In this document: in pieces, positions 2,522 through 10,247 of the stretch | Layout of the letters: each line of letters opens with the position of its first letter | Position numbering within the stretch: position 1 is the first letter of the stretch | NCBI GenBank assembly: GCA_023445955.1 | Contig: JAEXJH010000369.1 | Location: forward strand, 1-10,249 | Reading direction: 5' to 3' | Length of the DNA stretch: 10,249 nt | Source of the DNA: Pseudomonadota bacterium | GTDB taxonomy: Bacteria; Pseudomonadota; Alphaproteobacteria; Caulobacterales; Caulobacteraceae | Program-made: the position numbers and the translations under genes | Notes under the pieces: generated by a model | Database searches by the model: none | Told to the model about the DNA's origin: nothing | What the model saw: the letters and a program-made list of their open reading frames with translations, nothing else

Positions 2522-3175
2522 ATGGTCGACTATCGTGTTCGGATGTCTGACCGCTTCCTGGAAGCGGCGATCATGGGCGCCATCGAGGCCTACTGTCACG
2601 GCGACGGCTTTCAGACCGAGATCGAGACCATCGGCCCGATCTGGGGTCACCGCCGGATCAGCGGCGATGAGCACATCATCTTCCTCGAACGGCTGGCCGT
2701 CAGCCTCTCGGCCGACCGGCAGACGGATTCGGTCACGCCGAAAGCCGAGGCCACCGACCTGATGGCCGAGGTCATGGAGCGCTTGGCGCCGGAGCTGACC
2801 CTACTCGGGGATTTCCACTCGCACCCCTACAAGGACCGGGCCACCGTCGAGCGCATCAAGGGCTTCGAGTTCTCGCCCGGTGACTTCAACGCTTTCCTCC
2901 ACGACGACGATCTGTGGGACCGCAACCCCGCGGGCCCGGTCATGCTGGTGGTGACGATATGCCGGCTGAACCGCGTCCACGATACCGATGGCAAGCAGCT
3001 GCGCTTCAACGTCTGGCAGTTCGACCTCGGCGAATTCCGGTTCTGGATCAATGTCTGCGTCGGCTACCTGGATGAGCAGGGCCAACGCCAGCACACCGGC
3101 AACAAGCGGTCGAACGTATGGCTGGACCTGAATTCGCGGTTTTTCAATATCAGCGGCGATCGCGTCGGGACCTAG
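2522..3175 (+). CDS. JAB/MPN (JAMM) metallopeptidase-like protein
   Basis: 217 residues. The JAMM zinc signature is visible: a Glu before a glycine-rich strand (Glu35 in ETIGPIWGHR), His99 and His101 in LLGDFHSHP, and Ser118-x-x-Asp121 in FSPGD. JAB/MPN proteins are zinc isopeptidases that release proteins or amino acids from ubiquitin-like or cyclase conjugates; Cap3 of type II CBASS belongs to this superfamily. The His-to-Ser spacing (16 residues between His101 and Ser118) is longer than the 7 in the classical signature, so this is a divergent member with an insertion. The C-terminal part (about 135-217) holds further strands (MLVVTICRLN, FRFWINVCVGYL) of unclear role. It is soluble, with no signal peptide. 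The start is ATG 2522; a second in-frame ATG at 2543 is possible. It stops 9 nt before the ParB-like ATG. Its substrate is unknown; a role with the nearby CBASS E2 protein is only a hypothesis. Confidence 0.8.
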   Translation: MVDYRVRMSDRFLEAAIMGAIEAYCHGDGFQTEIETIGPIWGHRRISGDEHIIFLERLAVSLSADRQTDSVTPKAEATDLMAEVMERLAPELTLLGDFHSHPYKDRATVERIKGFEFSPGDFNAFLHDDDLWDRNPAGPVMLVVTICRLNRVHDTDGKQLRFNVWQFDLGEFRFWINVCVGYLDEQGQRQHTGNKRSNVWLDLNSRFFNISGDRVGT

Positions 3176-3184
3176 GGCGTGGCA

Positions 3185-3604
3185 ATGGGTTTCAAGCGGA
3201 TCCGCATCCCGATCGCGAGCCTAACGGGGAAGGTAGATCCCCTCTCCGGACGGCTCTGGGGCTGTGACCCCATCGGGGCCAGTGAAATCGTCGAAGCTGT
3301 CGAACAAGGCGCTCACGAGCCTCGCCCCTGGGACGAGGTAAAGGACGCCCTTCAAGGTCCAGGCGGTCGCTCATTTCACATCAAACGAGTGGCGACCTTC
3401 GTCCGCGACGGCCTGCCCAGCGACGATCATGCCATTGTTTTGGACCTACAGCGGCAGCCGGATGGACTTCCGATTGGCGTGCAGAATGGAAATCATCGAC
3501 TTGCGGCCGCTCAAATCCGCGGCGACGCGCACATCGACGCGCTGGTCTATGTCTTTGACCAAGCCGACCTCGACCGCGAACTACCGGGCTGGATGGCGCT
3601 CTGA
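3185..3604 (+). CDS. Small ParB-fold (ParB/Srx-like) protein
   Basis: 139 residues. The N-terminus (FKRIRIPIASL) looks like the opening strand of ParB-like domains, and the C-terminal half contains LPIGVQNGNHRLAAAQIRGD followed by HIDALVYVF. This NGNHR-LAAA segment sits where ParB proteins have their G-[HE]-[HR]-R nucleotide-binding helix. There is no helix-turn-helix domain, so it is a stand-alone ParB/sulfiredoxin-like fold. Such proteins have varied roles (nucleotide hydrolysis, nicking, DNA modification) and none can be assigned here. I start it at ATG 3185 because AGGG (3174-3177) lies 7 nt upstream; a GTG at 3179 in the same frame would overlap that site. The AGGG overlaps the stop codon of the JAB gene, so the two are probably translated from one message. 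Confidence 0.75.
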   Translation: MGFKRIRIPIASLTGKVDPLSGRLWGCDPIGASEIVEAVEQGAHEPRPWDEVKDALQGPGGRSFHIKRVATFVRDGLPSDDHAIVLDLQRQPDGLPIGVQNGNHRLAAAQIRGDAHIDALVYVFDQADLDRELPGWMAL

Positions 3605-3662: not shown

Positions 3663-4154
3663 TCATCGCCGATATCGGGCCAGGCGCGCGTTGACTTCGG
3701 CCCTCGGCAGACGGCACCGCGGATGTCCCGAGGCCTTGGCCAAGCCCGCCGCCAGCGCCTCAAGGCTGCAAGCCCCCTGCGCTTCCAGCTGATCCAGAAC
3801 CCAAAGCGTGCCGTGGACATCGAGGGCATGGGCTTCGGCGGTGCGCCTGAGACCCGCGTCCCCGGTCAGCAGCGTCCACTGTCGCCCCTGAGCCAGGGCG
3901 AAGGCGAAGGTGTCGGGCAAGGATAGGCTGGCGTCGGCCCGGCGCAGCACGGTCGCGCCCTGCACCTCGCCGGGCGACAATTCCTCAACCCGCAGGCCAA
4001 GCGCCAGAAGCCGGTCGCCCAAGGGGCCGGCCAGCTCGCGATGGAAGAGAAGGTCCGGCACGGCGAAATCGACCGTCAACCGGAAGACCGACTCCAGCAG
4101 TTCGCCTCGTTCCAGGTCGATGATGACCGAGGTGTCCGAGACGAGGACCGTCAT
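3663..4154 (-). CDS. PIN-domain ribonuclease (toxin-like)
   Basis: 163 residues carrying the PIN acidic quartet: Asp7 in VSDTSVIIDL, Glu40 in FHRELAG, Asp81 in LPDTFAFALA and Asp99 in LLTGDAGLR. PIN proteins are Mg/Mn-dependent ribonucleases; bacterial members paired with small DNA-binding partners are usually toxins. The C-terminal about 50 residues (helical, ending RLARYRR) form an extension beyond the core. The ATG at 4154 follows the stop of the XRE-ImmA/IrrE gene after 3 nt, so the two are tightly coupled. The partner is unusual for VapC-type toxins: instead of a small antitoxin it is a 351-residue repressor plus peptidase. Pairs of ImmA/IrrE regulators with PIN genes are known as predicted toxin-antitoxin-like modules. 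Whether the upstream protein neutralises this enzyme or only represses it is not visible in the sequence. Confidence 0.82.
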   Translation of the reverse strand: MTVLVSDTSVIIDLERGELLESVFRLTVDFAVPDLLFHRELAGPLGDRLLALGLRVEELSPGEVQGATVLRRADASLSLPDTFAFALAQGRQWTLLTGDAGLRRTAEAHALDVHGTLWVLDQLEAQGACSLEALAAGLAKASGHPRCRLPRAEVNARLARYRR

Positions 4155-4157
4155 GGA

Positions 4158-5213
4158 TCACGCCACCTGTTCCAGGCGAGCGTCGAGGTCACGCATCGAG
4201 ATGCCCAGCATCTCGGCCGCGCGGCCTTCGCCGATCACATTCTCGGCCAGGGCCCGCAGGCATAGGCGCTCGAAGCGCTTGGGCTCTTCTTCCTCGGCCT
4301 GCATGACCGCCGGCTCCTCGAACGGCGGATCGCGCCAACCTCTACGTTTGAATTCTCTGTAGAGGTCCGAAAAGGCCTTAGCGTCGATAATCCCCAGGTC
4401 CTTGCACCGAAAGGCGATGGCCTGGACGCTGACGCCGAAGCGCTTCTTGAGCGCAACCAGCTCGCCAATGCTGATCGACGAGCGATGGGCCCCGACCTCG
4501 GCCCGAACCACATCGGCCGGCATTAGGAAGGCCCCCGCGAAGCGGTGCGCGGCCTTCTCCTCATCAACGCCAACAGCCGGGGCCATGACCATGTGGCCAA
4601 GCTCGTGCGCCAACGTGAAGCGCTTGCGCTCCGCCCAGATATTTCGCCGAACAACCACGACCCGGGCGGCGTCGCGCCCGTGACGGCGAACGCGCGCGGC
4701 CAAGCCGTCGATGTCCTCAAGATCCAGCGAGAGGACCTTGATACCCCGCTCCTCGAGCAATTCGGCCAGCTTTGGGATCGGATCATGGCCCAAGCCCCAC
4801 TCCTCGCGCACGGAGCGGGCGGCGTCTTCGGCGTCGCGGATGTCGCTGACGGGGTAGGGCGCGCTGCGGGGCTGCTCCCAATCGACGCTTTTCAGCTGCA
4901 ACAGGTCTTCGATGGCCAGGTAGCGCTCCAGCATCTGGATCGTCAGCGCCTCGACCGTGGCCTCCTCCTTGGCCGACGTCTTCTTGCGGAAGTCCACGCC
5001 TTCCAGCACCAGCTCCTCGTCGCTGAGCAGGTAGCCCTCGCTGACGCCCAACGCCGAGGCCAGCGCCATCAGGGCGCGCGAGCCCGGCATGTCTTCATTG
5101 CGCTCATATTTGCCGATGGCCTGGGGCGTCACCACGCCGTCCATCCGGGCCGCAAGCTCGCGCAGCGACAGGCCAGCGGACGCACGCGCCACCTTCAGTC
5201 TGCGTCCAATCAT
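4158..5213 (-). CDS. XRE helix-turn-helix regulator fused to ImmA/IrrE zinc peptidase
   Basis: 351 residues. Residues about 5-65 are an XRE/Cro-type helix-turn-helix (GLSLRELAARMDG, then TPQAIGKYERNEDMPG and LMALASALGVS). A linker of about 80 residues follows, then an ImmA/IrrE-type peptidase at about 140-270 with RFTLAHELGHMVM (His203, Glu204, His207) and a downstream EEKAAHRFAGAFLMP supplying the third zinc ligand. A helical C-terminal region (about 310-351) resembles a second small helix-turn-helix. Members of this class repress genes and are relieved when a damage or phage signal activates proteolysis. I start at ATG 5213 since AAGGAG (5220-5225) lies 6 nt upstream; the frame remains open 26 more codons to 5291, through the operator region. 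The gene is divergent from the CBASS operon and coupled to the PIN gene. Control of CBASS is inferred from the shared TTTTGTAAAC sites. Confidence 0.9.
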   Translation of the reverse strand: MIGRRLKVARASAGLSLRELAARMDGVVTPQAIGKYERNEDMPGSRALMALASALGVSEGYLLSDEELVLEGVDFRKKTSAKEEATVEALTIQMLERYLAIEDLLQLKSVDWEQPRSAPYPVSDIRDAEDAARSVREEWGLGHDPIPKLAELLEERGIKVLSLDLEDIDGLAARVRRHGRDAARVVVVRRNIWAERKRFTLAHELGHMVMAPAVGVDEEKAAHRFAGAFLMPADVVRAEVGAHRSSISIGELVALKKRFGVSVQAIAFRCKDLGIIDAKAFSDLYREFKRRGWRDPPFEEPAVMQAEEEEPKRFERLCLRALAENVIGEGRAAEMLGISMRDLDARLEQVA

Positions 5214-5231
5214 CGCCCGCTCCTTCACGCA

Positions 5232-5268
5232 GTTTACAAAACTCGCATTTAAGCGCATTTTTGTAAAC
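5232..5268. promoter_or_regulatory. Inverted operator pair GTTTACAAAA-N17-TTTTGTAAAC
   Basis: GTTTACAAAA (5232-5241) and TTTTGTAAAC (5259-5268) are exact reverse complements with centres 27 bp apart. Each copy is itself nearly symmetric (TTT-two bases-AAA), as expected for a dimeric XRE operator. The left copy lies 6 nt upstream of the regulator's ribosome-binding site. The right copy, read on the minus strand, contains TTTACA, a plausible -35 box. The stretch is AT-rich within GC-rich surroundings. The likely binder is the XRE-ImmA/IrrE protein, giving autoregulation. Confidence 0.7.
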
Positions 5269-5276
5269 CAACAGCC

Positions 5277-5292
5277 CTTGAAATGGTTCAAG
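5277..5292. repeat. Inverted repeat CTTGAA-ATGG-TTCAAG
   Basis: Perfect 6-bp arms (5277-5282 and 5287-5292) flank 4 nt, between the two operator clusters. It might be a second protein-binding site or a small hairpin in the CBASS leader. The role is not evident. Confidence 0.45.
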
Positions 5293-5308
5293 ACGTCCCC
5301 ATGTCCCA

Positions 5309-5330
5309 GGCGAAATAACCCTGTTTCGCC
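5309..5330 (+). promoter_or_regulatory. Leader hairpin GGCGAAA-N8-TTTCGCC before the CBASS operon
   Basis: A perfect 7-bp inverted repeat (5309-5315 and 5324-5330) with an 8-nt loop lies 23 nt before the CD-NTase ATG and 3 nt before the third TTTTGTAAAC site. If transcribed, it could be a leader stem; as DNA, it could be an operator. The stem is followed by CCATTTTG, too weak a T-run to call a terminator with confidence. Confidence 0.5.
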
Positions 5331-5333
5331 CCA

Positions 5334-5343
5334 TTTTGTAAAC
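5334..5343 (+). promoter_or_regulatory. Third operator copy TTTTGTAAAC at the CBASS ribosome-binding site
   Basis: An exact copy of the right-hand motif of the regulator's operator pair, in the same orientation and 75 bp from it centre to centre (about seven helical turns). It ends 1 nt before the ribosome-binding sequence GAGGAA (5345-5350) of the CD-NTase gene. A bound repressor here would block the CBASS transcript, and with the copy at 5259-5268 it could form a DNA loop. Confidence 0.65.
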
Positions 5344-5353
5344 CGAGGAAGCC

Positions 5354-6592
5354 ATGGCCTGGCCGCCGCCTTCGAAAGATCCCTTCGCCGATCCGCTGGA
5401 CGCCGTCCTGGCCGAGATCGCCATCAACCTCCAACTTCCGCCTGGCCTGCACGCCAAGGCCGTCGACCGTTACGGGGCCGTCCGCACCTACATCGAACGG
5501 CCCGGCAGCCCGCTGCACGGGCGGGTGGCCTGCTTCTATCCGCAAGGTTCGATGCGGATCGACGCCACCATCTCCACCCGCGGCACCGACGACGAATACG
5601 ATATCGACATCGTCGCCGAGATCACCGGCCGCGACGACGGGCCCGAGGCCCTGCTCGACGACCTGGAGGCGGCGCTCGCCGGCTACCCGGTCGGCAAGAT
5701 CGTGCGCCAGACCCGGTGTGTCACGCTCTACTACGCGGACGGGATGCACCTGGACGTGACCCCGGCGCGGCGGACCGCGCTGAAAGAGAAAGAGGGCGTG
5801 ATCGCCCACGCCAAGAAGGCGGCCGGCGCCCCGCCCGGTCGCTACGTCCCGATGAACGCCTATGCGTTCGGGGACTGGTACACCGCGCGCACCCCGACGG
5901 AAGAGCGTTTCGCCAAGGCGCTGAACGAGCGGCTCTACGCCCAGGCCGGCATCGCCTTCGCCGACGCCGACGTCCATGACGTTCCCGACCAGACGCCGCT
6001 GATCATCAAAAGCGTGACGACCGTGGCCCTGCAGCTGCTCAAGCGTCATCGCAACATCGCCTATGCCGAAGAGACCGGCCGCGTGCCGCCCTCGATCGTG
6101 CTCTCCTGCCATGCGGGCCATGCGGCCCAGCCGGGCATGGGTCTGGCCGACATGGTCATCCGCCAGGCGCGCTGGACGGCGCGGGCGATCGACGAGGCGG
6201 CCCGCCAAGGCCGCCTGCTGTCGGTCCCCAACCCGGAGTTCTCCGACGAGCTTTTCACCGATCGCTGGCCTGAAAACCAGACCCAGCAACAAGGCTATGC
6301 GCGTCATCTCCACACCCTGGCCAACGGTCTGGAAGCCGCCCAACGGGGCAATGTGCAGCTGGAAGATCTCCAGGCCTGGTTGCGGGTGCAGTTCGGCGAG
6401 CGCGTGGTGACGCGGTCGGTCAAGGCGTTCAACGACCGCCTTGGCCGCCAAGTGAAGGCTGGCCAGCACGGCTATACGCCCAAGGGCGGCCTTTTCACCC
6501 CGGCGAAGCCTGCGATCATCGGCTCGCTGGCCAGCCTGGCGCCGGTCGCGGCCCGGGCCCACACCAACATGGGCGAGCGCCGCTTCTCGTGA
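5354..6592 (+). CDS. CBASS CD-NTase (cGAS/DncV-like nucleotidyltransferase, SMODS type)
   Basis: 412 residues. The nucleotidyltransferase core is clear: [10 protein letters not shown] (Gly65-Ser66), then [10 protein letters not shown] with the metal-binding Asp83 and Asp85, and a third acidic residue in MHLDVTP (Asp134). A helical domain fills the rest. On phage infection such enzymes make a cyclic di- or trinucleotide that activates the effector. From memory, HNH-SAVED (Cap5) effectors have been studied with CdnG-clade enzymes making 3',2'-cGAMP, including one from Asticcacaulis; the clade here is not proven. The ATG at 5354 has GAGGAA in front. The last 4 nt (GTGA) overlap the E2-like gene, which is translationally coupled. 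The C-terminal tail ends in GERRFS, the region that type II CBASS conjugation uses. Expression is probably controlled by the TTTTGTAAAC site just upstream. Confidence 0.92.
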
Positions 6593-7032
6593 GCCTGTCG
6601 ATCGACACCCAGATCGAGGCGATGGCGCGGCTGTGGCCGACCTTCAAGCTGGTCCGCCGCGAAGGGGCGGCGGCGCTGTGGCAGGGAGCGGTCCGGCCGC
6701 TCCTGCAAACCTATCAGGTCGGCGTCTTCTATCGCGCGCCGCTGATGGTCGAACGCTACAGCGTGCGCATTGTCCAGCCCCGGGTCGAGATCTTGTCGCC
6801 GGCCCTGCGGCCGCGCCGCGGCGACGCCGAAGGCATGTTGCCCCACGTCTATTACGGGCCGGACGGCGAGGTGACGCTGTGCATGCTCGATCCGGACTCG
6901 ACGGAATGGTCTCCGTCCGACCTGCTGGCCGAGACGACCGTGCCGTGGATCACCGACTGGCTGGCCGCCTACGAGGGCTGGCGCGCGACCGGCGAATGGA
7001 CCGGGACCGGCCGGCATGTGGAGCGCACCTGA
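6589..7032 (+). CDS. CBASS E2-like conjugating protein (type II short)
   Basis: 147 residues forming one E2-like (UBC-fold) domain. PHVYYG (His86) sits where E2 enzymes have their HPN-type motif, followed by the likely catalytic cysteine Cys98 in TLCML. The conserved tail shows [14 protein letters not shown], then [20 protein letters not shown], as I recall from E2-only CBASS proteins. In type II CBASS such proteins join the C-terminus of the CD-NTase to other proteins and so prime it. Here no E1 or JAB domain is fused or encoded in the operon, hence 'type II short'. Translation probably starts at GTG 6589, whose last two bases are shared with the TGA of the preceding gene; ATG at 6622 is a later alternative. 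The last base of its stop is the first base of the next gene's ATG. Confidence 0.85.
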
Positions 7033-8165
7033 TGGCCAAGACGACCATCCCTCAAAAAACGCAATCGGCCCTTTGGGCCCGCGCCGGCGGACGCTGCCAA
7101 TACCGAGGCTGCAATGAAGACCAGGTCGGCGACCTGATCTCCGGGCGCGAAGACGCGACCTTCGGCTTCATCGCCCACATTGTCGGCGACAGCATTGACG
7201 GACCGCGCGGCGACGCCGTGCGCTCGCCGCAGCTGGCGCGGTCGCTCGAGAACTTGATGCTGATGTGCGCCAAACATCACAAGCTCATCGACGTGGTGGA
7301 TGTCGATGGCCACCCTGAGACCGTGCTGCTGGCCATGAAGGCCGAGCACGAGAGCCGCATCCAGATCGTGACCGCGATCGACGAAGATCGGGCCTCTCAT
7401 GTGATCCGCTTCGGGGCCAACATCGGCGAAAACGAAGCCCTGGTTTCGACCAAGGCCATCTTCGCGGCCATGCCGCCCCACCACCATCCCGCCACGGGTC
7501 AGACGATCGACCTTGAGCTGGTCGGCTGCGCCTACAAGGACGACGAGCCGGCCTACTGGGTGTTCCAGCGCGACAATCTGCGCCGGCAGTTCGACGCCAA
7601 GGTTCGCGGGCGGGTCGAGCGCCAGGAGGTGCGCCACCTGAGCGTCTTCGCCCTAGCGCCGCAGCCCCTGCTGATCGAACTTGGCCGTCTCCTCTGCGAC
7701 ATCGTCCCCGCTACGGTGCGCCAGCGGCATCGGGAACCGGCGACCTGGGCCTGGCAGCCCGACCAACCGCCCATCGCGTTTACCGTGTCGCAGCCGGCCT
7801 CGACGGGCGGCTGCCCGGTCGCCCTGAAGCTGGGCATCAGCGCGACGGTCACCGACGAGCGCATCACCAAGATCCTCGGGGAAGACGTCGCCATGTGGTC
7901 GGTGACGGTGGACCAACCCCACAACGACATCCTGCGCCGGCCGGAAGACCAGGCCGCGTTCCGGACCCTGATGCGATCGTTGTTCGACCGCATCAAGGCC
8001 GTGCATGGTGAGGACGCGGTCCTGCATGTCTTCCCCGCCATGCCCGCCTCGCTGGCCGTGGAGCTTGGCCGGGTCTGGATGCCGAAATCCGACCTGGCCA
8101 TGACGATCTACGACAACAATCGCGCGGCCGGCTTCGTCCCCACGATCACGATCGGCAAGGACTAG
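7032..8165 (+). CDS. cap5: CBASS effector: HNH endonuclease fused to SAVED sensor (Cap5)
   Basis: 377 residues in two parts. An N-terminal HNH nuclease (about 1-95) has zinc-knuckle cysteines Cys22 and Cys27 (CQYRGC), a catalytic-type His49 in FIAHIVGDS, Asn74 in LENLMLMC, and Cys79 and His82/His83 in [10 protein letters not shown]. The remainder, from about residue 160, is the SAVED domain, which binds the CD-NTase product and makes Cap5 proteins assemble and cut double-stranded DNA without clear specificity, killing the infected cell. The C-terminal segment [20 protein letters not shown] is typical of SAVED ends. ATG at 7032 overlaps the E2 stop by one base (TGATG), and GGAG lies 8 nt upstream. 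The frame is open further 5' to 6633, but that is the shadow of the E2 gene. It converges on the SNase gene, with the stops 10 nt apart. Confidence 0.92.
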
Positions 8166-8175
8166 GCGGTCAAAG

Positions 8176-8847
8176 TCACCGCGCCGCCGCCGTCCAGCCC
8201 GCCGCGATCGCCTCAGCGGCCGAGCAAAACCAACGCTCACCGCGGGCCGTGTCGATGCGCGTGGCGGCGTAATCCTCCTGTCCGGGGACGTGGAAGATCC
8301 TCCGGCCCTTGGCGTTGATGTTGCCCTTGATCAAACAGCTCGCCGACGGCGGGGCGGCCGGCGCCGGCTTGGCCTGTCGCGCATCCGCCCGCCAGCTCGA
8401 GGGCGTCTCGAACCGCCCGGCCCATAGCCCGCGCCGGGCCTGGCGCGCGTCAGCCTCAGCGGACGCATAGGCGCCGCGGCTGAAAGCGCTGTAGTCGACC
8501 GCCCAGCCCGCGCGGACCAGGGCCGCACCCAAGTCGGTCGAGCCGACCCAACACCGAGAGACCGCCCGGCCGTAAGGGTCGCGGTCGCGTACCTCGCAGC
8601 GCACGGCTTGGCCTCCGATCAGGCGCGAAAGCTGTTCACGGGCGACGTCGCCGCAGGCATAACCACGGCCCTGGCCGTCCTGACAGACCTGGCGGCCTTC
8701 GGGGGCATCGACGCCCCAGAGCCGGACCCGCTCGGCGCCCAAGCTGAACGTGTCGCCATCGACGACCCGCGCGAACCCGGTCAACTTTGCCGGCGCGGCG
8801 GCCGCCATGCCCACCGCCAGGATCAACAACCCAACCCGCCGGATCAT
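8176..8847 (-). CDS. Exported SNase-like (thermonuclease family) nuclease
   Basis: 223 residues. Residues 1-20 form a Sec signal peptide (RR, hydrophobic run LLILAVG, then AAAAPA), so the enzyme is probably periplasmic or secreted. The staphylococcal-nuclease fold follows at about 24-145: VVDGDTF, VRLWGVDAPE (Arg42, Asp47, Glu50) and DPYGRAVSRC (Arg94), matching the Arg/Glu/Arg active site and calcium-binding aspartates. A Pro/Ala linker (about 155-168) leads to a C-terminal module with CLIKGNI, HVPGQEDY and GERWFCSAAEAIAAGW, frequent in alphaproteobacterial members. Four cysteines in the SNase part may form disulfides. The family cleaves DNA and RNA non-specifically with calcium. Its ATG overlaps the TGA of the replication gene (ATGA), so the two are translationally coupled. 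Its role on the element is unknown; nucleic-acid processing at the cell envelope during transfer is one guess. Confidence 0.9.
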   Translation of the reverse strand: MIRRVGLLILAVGMAAAAPAKLTGFARVVDGDTFSLGAERVRLWGVDAPEGRQVCQDGQGRGYACGDVAREQLSRLIGGQAVRCEVRDRDPYGRAVSRCWVGSTDLGAALVRAGWAVDYSAFSRGAYASAEADARQARRGLWAGRFETPSSWRADARQAKPAPAAPPSASCLIKGNINAKGRRIFHVPGQEDYAATRIDTARGERWFCSAAEAIAAGWTAAAR

Positions 8848-10094
8848 CGCTGATCCTTGCGCAGGGTGATCACCACCCGCTCGACGAAGATCTCGGCGAC
8901 CTCGGCGGCGTGCAGCACGGCGTCCAGATATTGGCTCTTGATCCGGTCGGCCGCGATCTGGCTGGGCGTCGACAGCTGCAGCACCCCGTCGGTCAGGCCG
9001 TGGAACCCAACCCGGCCGAACCAGCTGCCATAGGCCCCCTCGCGAACCAGCCGCCGCAGCGGCGCGGCGATCGCCTGCCAGATCGGATCGTCGGCGCCCG
9101 GCGCCGCCATCAGCGCCGCCGGTTCCGGCAGAGCCGCCGGCGGCGGAATATCCCCCTTGGCCTTGAGCACCCGCGCGAAATTCAGGCGCAGGTCCGGCGC
9201 CCCGCGCGGCTCATAGGAGGCCATGCGGCCGAAGTATTTGCAGGGGCTTCGGACGTCGGGATCCTCGATGGCGATCGCCAGCATGGCGATGGCGCGCACC
9301 CCGTGGCGCTTCAGGGCCCAGGCGAAGGTCTGATCGTTGTTTCGCTCGCGCTCGGGGAGCAAATCATCGACGGCGGCGGCCACCCGCGCGAGGTCAGCAG
9401 GCGTGACGCTGGCCGGATCGGCCACTGCGGCAGGCCCCACCAGCGCGGCGAGGCGTGGAGAGACCTGGAAGGCGGCCCTAAGCTCCTGGCGGACCATTTC
9501 CGCGGGCGCGGACCCCTCAGAAAAGGCGCTGGAGAAACCGCTTGCTCCCTCCGGAGAGCAAATGGCGCTGTTCTGTCGGTTGGCAGGGCGTTGGCCCGAG
9601 GATTTGGAGGTCGAGCTGATCTCGGCGGCCGCAGGTCGCCGACTATCGCATTGATGTCGCGCTGGAGGCGCGTCCTTTCCTTGTACAGGAGAACTGACGT
9701 TCTGATGGGACTGTTCTAGGTGAGTGAATCCTGGCGCCCAGGCGGCATTTCTTTCACTGAAGACGACGGCTTCGGAATAGGCGGCCCTCCGGGCCTGGGC
9801 CGCTTCACGAACCGCCAGATCCGCAGCCTCCAATTCATCCAGGCGAGCCACGAGGGGGGCCAGGTCATAGGCCTCGACCCCGGCCGGCCGGTTGGCGCGG
9901 GTGTAGTCGCGAACCATGAAGCCGGCCGCCTCCAGGGCGCGGCGATGGGCGCGAGCGTTGCTCTCCGTGCAGCCCAGATAGTCGGCAATCAGGCTCGTGC
10001 CGGGCCAGACGGTCGCCACGTCCTGTTCGAGCCGGTCCTGGTTAAGGTGCTCGACATAGAGCAGCAGCGTCATGCGTTGCTGCACCGAGAGCAT
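8844..10094 (-). CDS. RepC-like replication initiator with C-terminal DnaA_N-like domain
   Basis: 416 residues from ATG 10094 (AAGGG 7 nt upstream; TTG 10109 is an in-frame alternative). The N-terminal part (to about 90) is a winged-helix replication domain of the RepC type: TVWPGTSLIADYLGCTESNARAHRRALEAAGFMVRDYTRANR. Residues about 120-205 are a Ser/Gln/Pro-rich linker with lower GC. A second conserved part (about 205-300) includes TFAWALKRHG and SPCKYFGRMASYEP. The C-terminal about 336-405 (DPIWQAIAAPLRRLV, YGSWFGRVGF, LQLSTPSQIAADRI) resembles DnaA domain I, which contacts helicase and other DnaA molecules. Such proteins open the plasmid origin and recruit replication machinery. The coding signal continues upstream of both starts to a TAA at 10235-10233, so the intact protein was probably longer. 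The SNase gene overlaps its stop. Confidence 0.82.
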   Translation of the reverse strand: MLSVQQRMTLLLYVEHLNQDRLEQDVATVWPGTSLIADYLGCTESNARAHRRALEAAGFMVRDYTRANRPAGVEAYDLAPLVARLDELEAADLAVREAAQARRAAYSEAVVFSERNAAWAPGFTHLEQSHQNVSSPVQGKDAPPARHQCDSRRPAAAEISSTSKSSGQRPANRQNSAICSPEGASGFSSAFSEGSAPAEMVRQELRAAFQVSPRLAALVGPAAVADPASVTPADLARVAAAVDDLLPERERNNDQTFAWALKRHGVRAIAMLAIAIEDPDVRSPCKYFGRMASYEPRGAPDLRLNFARVLKAKGDIPPPAALPEPAALMAAPGADDPIWQAIAAPLRRLVREGAYGSWFGRVGFHGLTDGVLQLSTPSQIAADRIKSQYLDAVLHAAEVAEIFVERVVITLRKDQR

Positions 10095-10247
10095 CGGCGT
10101 GCCCTTCAAGACCGCCGCGGCGATCCGCGCGACGGTGACGCCGGCCTGCCAGCGCCAGGCGCGGGCCTGGGCGCAGACCGCGTCGAAATTGGGCGCGCGC
10201 TTGGCGAAGCCTGGTCGCCAATCGTCGCCCGCTTAGGCCGTTTGCAT
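10095..10247 (-). pseudogene. Interrupted 5' end of the replication initiator reading frame
   Basis: Upstream of ATG 10094 the same frame stays open to a TAA at 10235-10233. From 10232 to 10110 there are 41 codons, only 4 of which end in A or T, and they encode a plausible N-terminal segment (WRPGFAKRAPNF, AWRWQAGVTVARIAAAVLKG). None of them is ATG, GTG, TTG or CTG, so this coding-like stretch has no usable start. Directly above the TAA, in frame, are ATG (10247-10245) and three sense codons. The simplest reading is one original gene starting at that ATG and broken by a nonsense codon or a sequencing error, with the visible protein restarting at 10109 or 10094. If instead the gene begins internally, the upstream coding bias is unexplained. 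Confidence 0.5.

Follow-up and report, generated by a model that had tools for sequence, protein, structure and literature searches.

The stretch of DNA analysed here, called the window below, comprises 10,249 nucleotides (nt) of contig JAEXJH010000369.1 from a bacterium of the family Caulobacteraceae, and it carries an operon of the cyclic-oligonucleotide-based anti-phage signalling system (CBASS) together with a divergently read gene for a single-chain regulator (REG). REG, the PIN-domain ribonuclease gene behind it and three copies of the box TTTTGTAAAC probably make up a self-contained controller cassette for CBASS, in which REG would cut itself at the F75-R76 junction on a damage or phage signal; moderate confidence is placed in this reading. 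The sequence shows how the cassette is built and conserved, how it is tied to CBASS among its closest relatives and how it is exchanged for controllers of the CapH/CapP type; from these features DNA binding by REG, repression, the response to a signal, self-cleavage and neutralisation of the toxin are predicted. The features are as follows (E, expectation value).

4158..5213, minus strand: REG gene; XRE helix-turn-helix (HTH, residues 6-62), F75-R76-K77 linker, ImmA/IrrE (M78) peptidase (154-271) and helical C-terminal part, by Pfam, PADLOC, NCBIfam and a structure model
3663..4154, minus strand: PIN-domain ribonuclease gene, partner of REG, by Pfam, model fold and adjacency
5232..5241, minus strand: box 1, TTTTGTAAAC, beside the REG ribosome-binding site (RBS), inverted partner of box 2
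5259..5268, plus strand: box 2, TTTTGTAAAC, ahead of the CBASS promoter-like sequence; it presumably overlaps the promoter of REG
5278..5306, plus strand: putative CBASS promoter, TTGAAA (-35) 9 nt past box 2 and a weak -10 near 5300-5306, by conservation
5309..5330, plus strand: hairpin GGCGAAATAACCCTGTTTCGCC with a terminator-like tail, in the presumed leader, past the CBASS promoter-like sequence and ahead of box 3
5334..5343, plus strand: box 3, TTTTGTAAAC, 75 nt from box 2, ending 1 nt before the cyclase RBS
5354..6592, plus strand: CD-NTase (cGAS/DncV-like nucleotidyltransferase, the CBASS cyclase), PADLOC PDLC00800, E 1.8e-172
6589..7032, plus strand: E2-like protein, PADLOC PDLC00877, E 4.1e-54
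7032..8165, plus strand: HNH-SAVED effector, Cap5-like, PADLOC PDLC00739, E 2.8e-162; Pfam SAVED, E 2.5e-53

The regulator, its partner gene and the boxes

REG is a single chain of 351 amino acids (aa) with no internal stop. An earlier note on this DNA, made from the sequence alone, had described it as an XRE HTH fused to an ImmA/IrrE peptidase with the motif HELGH, and Pfam bears this out: HTH_3 was matched at residues 6-62 (E 1.2e-13) and Peptidase_M78 at residues 154-271 (E 1.5e-19), with HELGH at residues 203-207. In the structure model (predicted local distance difference test, pLDDT, 88.7), the top Foldseek matches of the peptidase part are CapP and PprI, and those of the HTH part are phage-repressor, ImmR and CapH domains. 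For conservation, the genomes of GTDB species were scanned for relatives of REG, by which 119 were found, and the best 80 (55-99% identity) were examined. The residues H203, E204, H207 and E219 are kept in 80 of 81 REG sequences (the remaining one has an X), and F75-R76 is invariant in all 81; moreover, an aromatic residue followed by Arg stands at this position in 20/20 wider relatives, including those of Cyanobacteriota, Campylobacterota and Bacteroidota. The PADLOC model RmrA covers REG residues 4-345 (E 3.2e-53), and the NCBIfam repressor/antitoxin model spr1629 scores 105.9 bits, far under its cut-off of 335. A sequence search of the PDB with REG alone gave nothing at E<=0.001; the REG profile matched chain 9vzy (E 9.3e-6), which is probably the antitoxin VapB52 discussed below, judging from the spacing of its zinc ligands. 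Weak HTH_8 matches occur in 9 of 20 members (best E 0.0015). The C-terminal part was also considered as a UPF0175-type antitoxin domain, which was dropped on finding 2/20 members at E<=0.1 (best 0.022).

The earlier note treated REG as the sole unit; the regulator itself is real, but the PIN ribonuclease gene was overlooked, whose start codon lies 3 nt past the REG stop codon and which is conserved. Its product has 163 aa. The Pfam PIN match of the window protein is marginal (E 2e-4, 22.4 bits against a cut-off of 23.6), and PIN is matched at E<=0.1 by 15/15 family members; the protein model (pLDDT 95.3) resembles RNase P and VapC folds. In an alignment of 80 rows, D7 is kept in 79, D13, E40 and D81 each in 77, and D99 in 76. 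A PIN gene or a fragment of it stands behind REG in 79 of the 80 loci. The match is plainly shortened or split in L003 and L026, and apparently also in L035, L041 and L079; it ends at residue 16 in L004 and at residue 76 in L003, and in both of these loci REG is open and the CBASS genes are full-length. Among the PADLOC models, no RmrT matched the PIN protein at E<=0.01, and only weak PDC-S70 matches were obtained (E 5.9e-5). Among solved structures searched by sequence, the protein alone and its profile both gave nothing relevant at E<=0.1; a match to enoyl-CoA hydratase, seen once and with the sequence alone, was set aside as chance.

The divergent gap between REG and the cyclase spans 5214-5353 (140 nt), and it holds the three exact copies of TTTTGTAAAC that the earlier note had placed there: the inverted pair at the REG RBS, with box 1 just outside AAGGAG (5222-5227, complement), and the third copy 1 nt ahead of the cyclase RBS GAGGAA. 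These are the only exact copies in the window, and one mismatch adds none. In 200 dinucleotide shuffles of the whole window the mean number of copies was 0.04 and three copies never occurred (0/200), so that the arrangement is far beyond chance.

By the same note, absence of the motif ahead of cdn in related loci that keep both genes would have told against the claim; the motif is present in such loci. Counts refer to 80 upstream regions, that is, those of 79 loci and the window, with L078 omitted, whose contig begins 26 nt before REG. With at most one mismatch per 7-mer, the inverted pair occurs in 79/80 and the triad in 70/80; with zero mismatches the figures are 58/80 and 49/80. When one representative is taken per 90% REG cluster, the pair is found in 29/29 and the triad in 22/29, and 100 shuffled sets of these representatives gave no triad. 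The spacing in the triads is narrow, with 29-30 nt between boxes 1 and 2 and 72-76 nt, about seven DNA turns, between boxes 2 and 3. Across whole genomes, the exact inverted pair occurs at a single place in 12 of 14 (2.8-8.8 Mb) and nowhere in the other two, and the pattern of boxes 2 and 3 at a single place in 5 of 6 and nowhere in the sixth. Such rarity is what would be expected of a dedicated regulator that acts locally.

Between boxes 2 and 3, a TTG[ACT] element, mostly CTTGAAA, follows box 2 at 7-10 nt in 24 of the 29 REG clusters, and by eye a TA-rich hexamer often stands about 17 nt beyond it. The two elements are read as a putative CBASS promoter, which would place box 3 about 20 nt into the transcript. 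For REG, no convincing -10/-35 pair was fixed. The hairpin GGCGAAATAACCCTGTTTCGCC has a fold z of -1.8, with 11/200 shuffles equally stable, and by eye it is kept in the nearest relatives only. That all three boxes serve as one CBASS-only operator was considered and rejected, boxes 1 and 2 being kept in 29/29 clusters and the triad with box 3 in 22/29. Boxes 1 and 2 most likely serve autoregulation; boxes 2 and 3 flank the CBASS promoter-like sequence.

The mechanism proposed on this basis would run as follows. REG would bind boxes 1 and 2 and repress its own gene and the PIN gene, and it would bind boxes 2 and 3, between which the CBASS promoter-like sequence lies, so that CBASS is repressed, possibly via a DNA loop. 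The trigger would be a DNA-damage or phage signal, most likely single-stranded DNA. On this signal the ImmA/IrrE domain would cut its own chain at the F75-R76 junction, by which the DNA-binding head is parted from the rest; CBASS and the cassette would then be derepressed, and the cleavage could also loosen the hold of REG on the PIN ribonuclease.

Linkage to CBASS and exchange of controllers

In 74 of the 80 loci, CBASS genes are the immediate divergent neighbours of REG, and every match is on the divergent strand. The earlier claim that the regulator is placed to control CBASS is supported in part, by this linkage, by the conservation of box 3 just past the promoter-like sequence and by the structural matches of the two REG parts, with the qualification that boxes 1 and 2 are most likely autoregulatory. 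A cyclase beyond a fragment is present in 68 of the 74 CBASS loci, although L022, L026 and L035 have it split in two. Of the remaining six, L006 has no more than a CapV-like effector, L020 is cut off by its contig end, L045, L046 and L047 hold cyclase fragments, and L051 retains 57 residues of TRIP13. The cyclases of the linked operons span seven PADLOC models, and the effectors are of unrelated kinds. By PADLOC and Pfam, the builds include HNH-SAVED with E2, CapV with E2, HORMA/TRIP13 with NucC, HORMA/TRIP13 with a TIR-type effector, a two-transmembrane (TM) effector, a Tle1-like protein with cyclase, and full E1-E2/JAB with SAVED-TM. In the window itself, CD-NTase, E2-like protein and effector, each matched by a PADLOC CBASS model, make up the set of a type II-short CBASS, with a Cap5-like effector.

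Six of the 80 loci are without CBASS (L027, L030, L075, L078, L079 and L080); L078 and L079, with little sequence on the divergent side, and L080 are counted among the 80 as CBASS-free. In L027 (211-4428) and L030, a three-gene operon is found, which encodes a 424-aa protein with weak LmuA/RTasMBL matches, an E2/E1/JAB fusion and a matchless 221-aa protein, and which is a candidate immune operon under the REG cassette. In L075 (4678-6903), genes for multi-ubiquitin, Prok-E2_E and an E1-like protein stand divergent from REG as a ubiquitin-like operon. The divergent genes of L080 gave no clear defence match; among them, a 286-aa frame (5890-6750) without a PADLOC match is possibly an unknown immune gene.

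The linked operon type changes at least 19 times on the REG tree, the minimum for 11 groups being 10 (a quick tree with many weak forks). A clearer case is given by L060 and L061, whose REG sequences are letter-identical and whose CBASS operons differ: TRIP13-HORMA-cyclase-NucC (type III) in the former and CapV-cyclase-E2 (CapV type II) in the latter. Their DNA is 93% identical over a stretch that starts 76 nt within the first CBASS gene, takes in REG and PIN and continues for about 6.5 kb more. In L059 and L061, about 26 TRIP13 codons stand behind box 3 (about 100-180 nt beyond it), followed by a stop and then CapV. This TRIP13 remnant is a scar of CBASS operon replacement. Between L057 and L063, the common stretch runs only from box 3 to the PIN end, at the sensitivity used.

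Exchange is also seen from the side of CBASS. In genome G469 (L135, G469:C22:722000-740000) the cyclase is 96% identical to that of the window. Within the 18 kb compared, the only DNA that resembles the window corresponds to its positions 5353-8155 (86% identity); the similarity begins 1 nt ahead of the cyclase ATG. The divergent slot of G469 is filled by a CapH-like gene (E 6.2e-10) and a CapP-like gene (E 2.7e-48), and by eye its palindromes differ. Taken together with L060/L061, these exchanges imply that a controller with its operators behaves as a plug-in unit, and that the same socket can take either REG-PIN or CapH/CapP. G469 belongs to a cyclase-first sample of 15 CBASS loci, drawn as 6, 3 and 7 places with one of them counted once, which includes the centre genome because it has REG-PIN. 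In this sample the divergent slot holds REG-PIN in one locus (the centre genome), WYL proteins in two, nothing recognised in four, and CapH/CapP-like pairs or a CapP-like gene in six by PADLOC and in two more by weak tblastn matches only. REG-PIN is therefore a minority occupant of this slot.

Two side observations belong here. L135 and L125 (G364) carry window-type CBASS operons under split CapH/CapP-like controllers; and the upstream DNA of L129 and L135 contains, by eye, TTGTCTnGCCnGACA-like palindromes, which are possibly CapH operators.

Known systems and competing explanations

One of the nearest known systems is VapBC52 of M. tuberculosis, described in June 2026, in which a single-chain XRE-IrrE antitoxin, VapB52, is paired with a PIN toxin and is reported to cleave itself under stimulation by single-stranded DNA (PMC13273310). 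According to the same source, cleavage occurs near an FR motif at residues 75-76, and the switch Cys, C229, stands nine residues after the second His. The likeness consists of an XRE-IrrE protein with a PIN partner in one operon, the FR motif at 75-76 in both, and a Cys at the C229 distance from HExxH in 18 of 81 REG relatives. In contrast, the window REG has no C229-type Cys, the sequence relation is remote, and the part of the VapBC52 account available mentions neither an operator nor a link to a neighbouring CBASS operon. As a side observation, a Cys nine after the second His of HELGH is confined to the Roseobacter clade L057-L074. Loop Cys residues occur in 23 of 81 REG sequences in all, five of them elsewhere in the loop than at the VapB52 spacing; a cysteine switch as the trigger common to REG relatives was rejected for this reason, being missing in the rest, the window included.

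CapH and CapP are two-protein controllers of CBASS (Lau et al. 2022, as cited in PMC13373217 and PMC13273310). REG resembles them in its XRE HTH and its IrrE-type zinc peptidase with HExxH and a distal Glu, and it differs in being one chain, in having a PIN gene in its unit and in lacking, in the window protein, the cysteine switch; nor is there a TTTTGTAAAC box in the CapH/CapP-type upstream regions of L125 (scan) and L129 (by eye). With RosmerTA the cassette shares the antitoxin, REG being matched by the model RmrA along nearly its full length; it differs in that no RmrT model matched the PIN partner at E<=0.01 and in having a divergent CBASS operon. PMC10440598 discusses RosmerTA as well as ImmA-type antitoxins paired with PIN-like proteins, and fused COG2856-Xre proteins beside PIN genes were predicted as toxin-antitoxin (TA)-like systems in 2009 (Makarova, PMC2701414). 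The controllers of immune operons named in PMC13373217 are CapW/BrxR, CapH with CapP, and CapK with CapS. CapW/BrxR and CapK with CapS likewise act locally on immune operons that can be exchanged, CBASS and ubiquitin-like (Bub) operons among them (PMC13373217), and WYL proteins fill the same slot in the two sampled CBASS loci above; their protein families and sensing mechanism are unrelated to those of REG. No paper was found that ties a single-chain XRE-IrrE/PIN pair to CBASS, in a literature search that covered few subscription papers and no preprints, and Lau et al. 2022 may mention a fused CapH-CapP. The novelty that the earlier note saw in one chain doing both jobs is thus divided: self-cleavage has a reported precedent in VapB52 (PMC13273310), whereas the tie to CBASS was not met with in that search. 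XRE-IrrE/PIN pairs and self-cleavage are known; a TA-type controller for CBASS would be new.

Several points weigh against the cassette as proposed. Seven of the 29 REG clusters have no triad, and in L019, L021 and L023 box 3 is missing and the cyclase is about 595 nt off; a promoter consensus scan of the window gave no promoter between REG and the cyclase. As to the trigger, the window REG has no Cys between H207 and E219, where the cysteine-switch loop would require one, and the switch Cys of VapB52 has no counterpart in 58 of 81 REG sequences, so that the window REG would need another trigger; a Pfam search of REG found no GAF-like sensor domain. The CBASS assignment was made by a search with representatives from the same loci, each of them PADLOC-checked (the first gene of L063 by Pfam). 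On the REG tree, loci with the same operon type tend to group together, with 19 changes against a shuffled mean of 47.6, and exchange is therefore occasional, not constant. Finally, the linkage thins out with distance. An even sample of 385 alphaproteobacterial genomes yielded 24 with an XRE-M78 match at E<=1e-15; the match reaches 40% identity or more in five of these, and among the five only the one in the centre genome adjoins CBASS. Of eight plasmid relatives, hand-picked for spread from the 311 plasmid records that hold a REG relative, CBASS adjoins REG in four (Pontibrevibacter, Roseovarius, Methylobacterium and the bacteroidotal Runella).

It is rather unlikely that REG is a CBASS repressor released in another way, through a shift in the toxin:antitoxin ratio, the binding of PIN or the action of a host protease, with the M78 domain structural or acting on another protein. 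The operator anatomy and the CBASS linkage agree with such a release, as does the lack of a conserved cysteine switch, and type II TA antitoxin repressors commonly respond to the toxin ratio; a purely structural role, however, would not need the constancy of the catalytic residues (80/81) and of F75-R76 (81/81), and the VapB52 precedent (PMC13273310) speaks for self-cleavage. An independent TA module of the VapBC52 or RosmerTA kind, merely lying beside CBASS, with autoregulatory boxes and a box 3 of no CBASS role, is an unlikely account. The linkage of 74/80 closest relatives to unrelated CBASS types argues against it, together with the conservation of box 3 past the CBASS promoter-like sequence, the CapH/CapP-like pair that can stand in place of the cassette, with similarity from the cyclase start codon on, and the retention of REG where the PIN gene is broken. 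In its favour are the antitoxin-like character of REG (PADLOC RmrA, and NCBIfam spr1629 far below cut-off), the nearly constant PIN gene or fragment, REG-PIN pairs without CBASS in the plasmid loci L082, L084 and L085 and in L121, L122 and L124, and the prediction of such pairs by Makarova in 2009 (PMC2701414). Least probable is that the cassette stabilises defence islands by addiction, CBASS being a hitch-hiker and its regulation secondary: REG-PIN does persist beside remnants of CBASS (L045, L046, L047 and L051) and 311 plasmid records hold a REG relative, but REG and CBASS also persist where the PIN match stops at residue 16 (L004) or 76 (L003), and elsewhere CapH/CapP-like and WYL proteins fill the same slot.

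The self-cleaving controller cassette is thus preferred. A wider reading is put forward more tentatively, as a possibility below even chances: a TA module may have come to serve CBASS, ubiquitin-like operons and probably further immune operons as an interchangeable master switch, in which a self-cleaving antitoxin-repressor would sense infection-linked DNA damage, turn on the operon behind box 3 and at the same time free PIN as a backup killer. If this is true, a phage that destroys or bypasses the controller would trigger both the operon behind box 3 and the PIN arm. The cassette as proposed would add a further class to the immune-operon controllers listed in PMC13373217 (CapW/BrxR, CapH+CapP, CapK+CapS) and would explain the antitoxin-like protein beside CBASS, the TA pair being its control panel. 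Whether immune operons and their controllers have separate histories as plug-in units swapped at the start codon becomes directly testable, the natural exchanges (the same CBASS with two controllers, the same controller with several CBASS types) providing matched pairs.

Distant relatives and the setting of the window

Beyond the centre genome, the other four even-sample relatives at >=40% identity differ in their neighbours: L123 has an E1-like gene, L122 a SoFic-like gene in second position, L124 an SspH/Mad8-like gene at a distance of about 1.5 kb, and in L121 nothing was recognised. In the 19 even-sample genomes below 40% identity, neither the PIN nor the CBASS queries match within the 1.5 kb flanks. 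Among the eight plasmid relatives, those without adjoining CBASS have restriction-modification (R-M) genes near in two, clustered regularly interspaced short palindromic repeats (CRISPR) genes in one and nothing comparable in one; PIN is present in seven by annotation or tblastn and was not found by these in L083, in which R-M genes are nearby and an AbiTii-like gene is on the divergent strand. The distant relatives L083, L084, L085, L122 and L124 lie near AbiTii-like, type I R-M, CRISPR type I-U, SoFic-like and SspH/Mad8-like genes, and pairs of GTTTACAA/TTGTAAAC are seen upstream of REG in L082-L084. From these neighbours and pairs, the REG-PIN module may serve other defences. It is read as a module for defence operons generally, with CBASS as the usual partner in the subfamily of the window, and it is scattered, not common.

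An Rfam scan of the window returned no RNA family at the gathering threshold, and megablast against plasmids found no close DNA relative of it. Convergent with PIN, 2522-3604 on the plus strand encodes a Prok-JAB-like protein (E 8e-4, under the cut-off) and a 141-aa protein with a ParB-like GNHRLAA motif; this gene pair occurs in L002 and is absent from L001. The outer parts on the minus strand, 1-1747 and 8176-10109, carry ParB-like (by eye), weak TraI-like, thermonuclease-like (by eye) and RepC/DnaA_N-type genes, and from these flanking gene types the window looks like a plasmid or integrative element.

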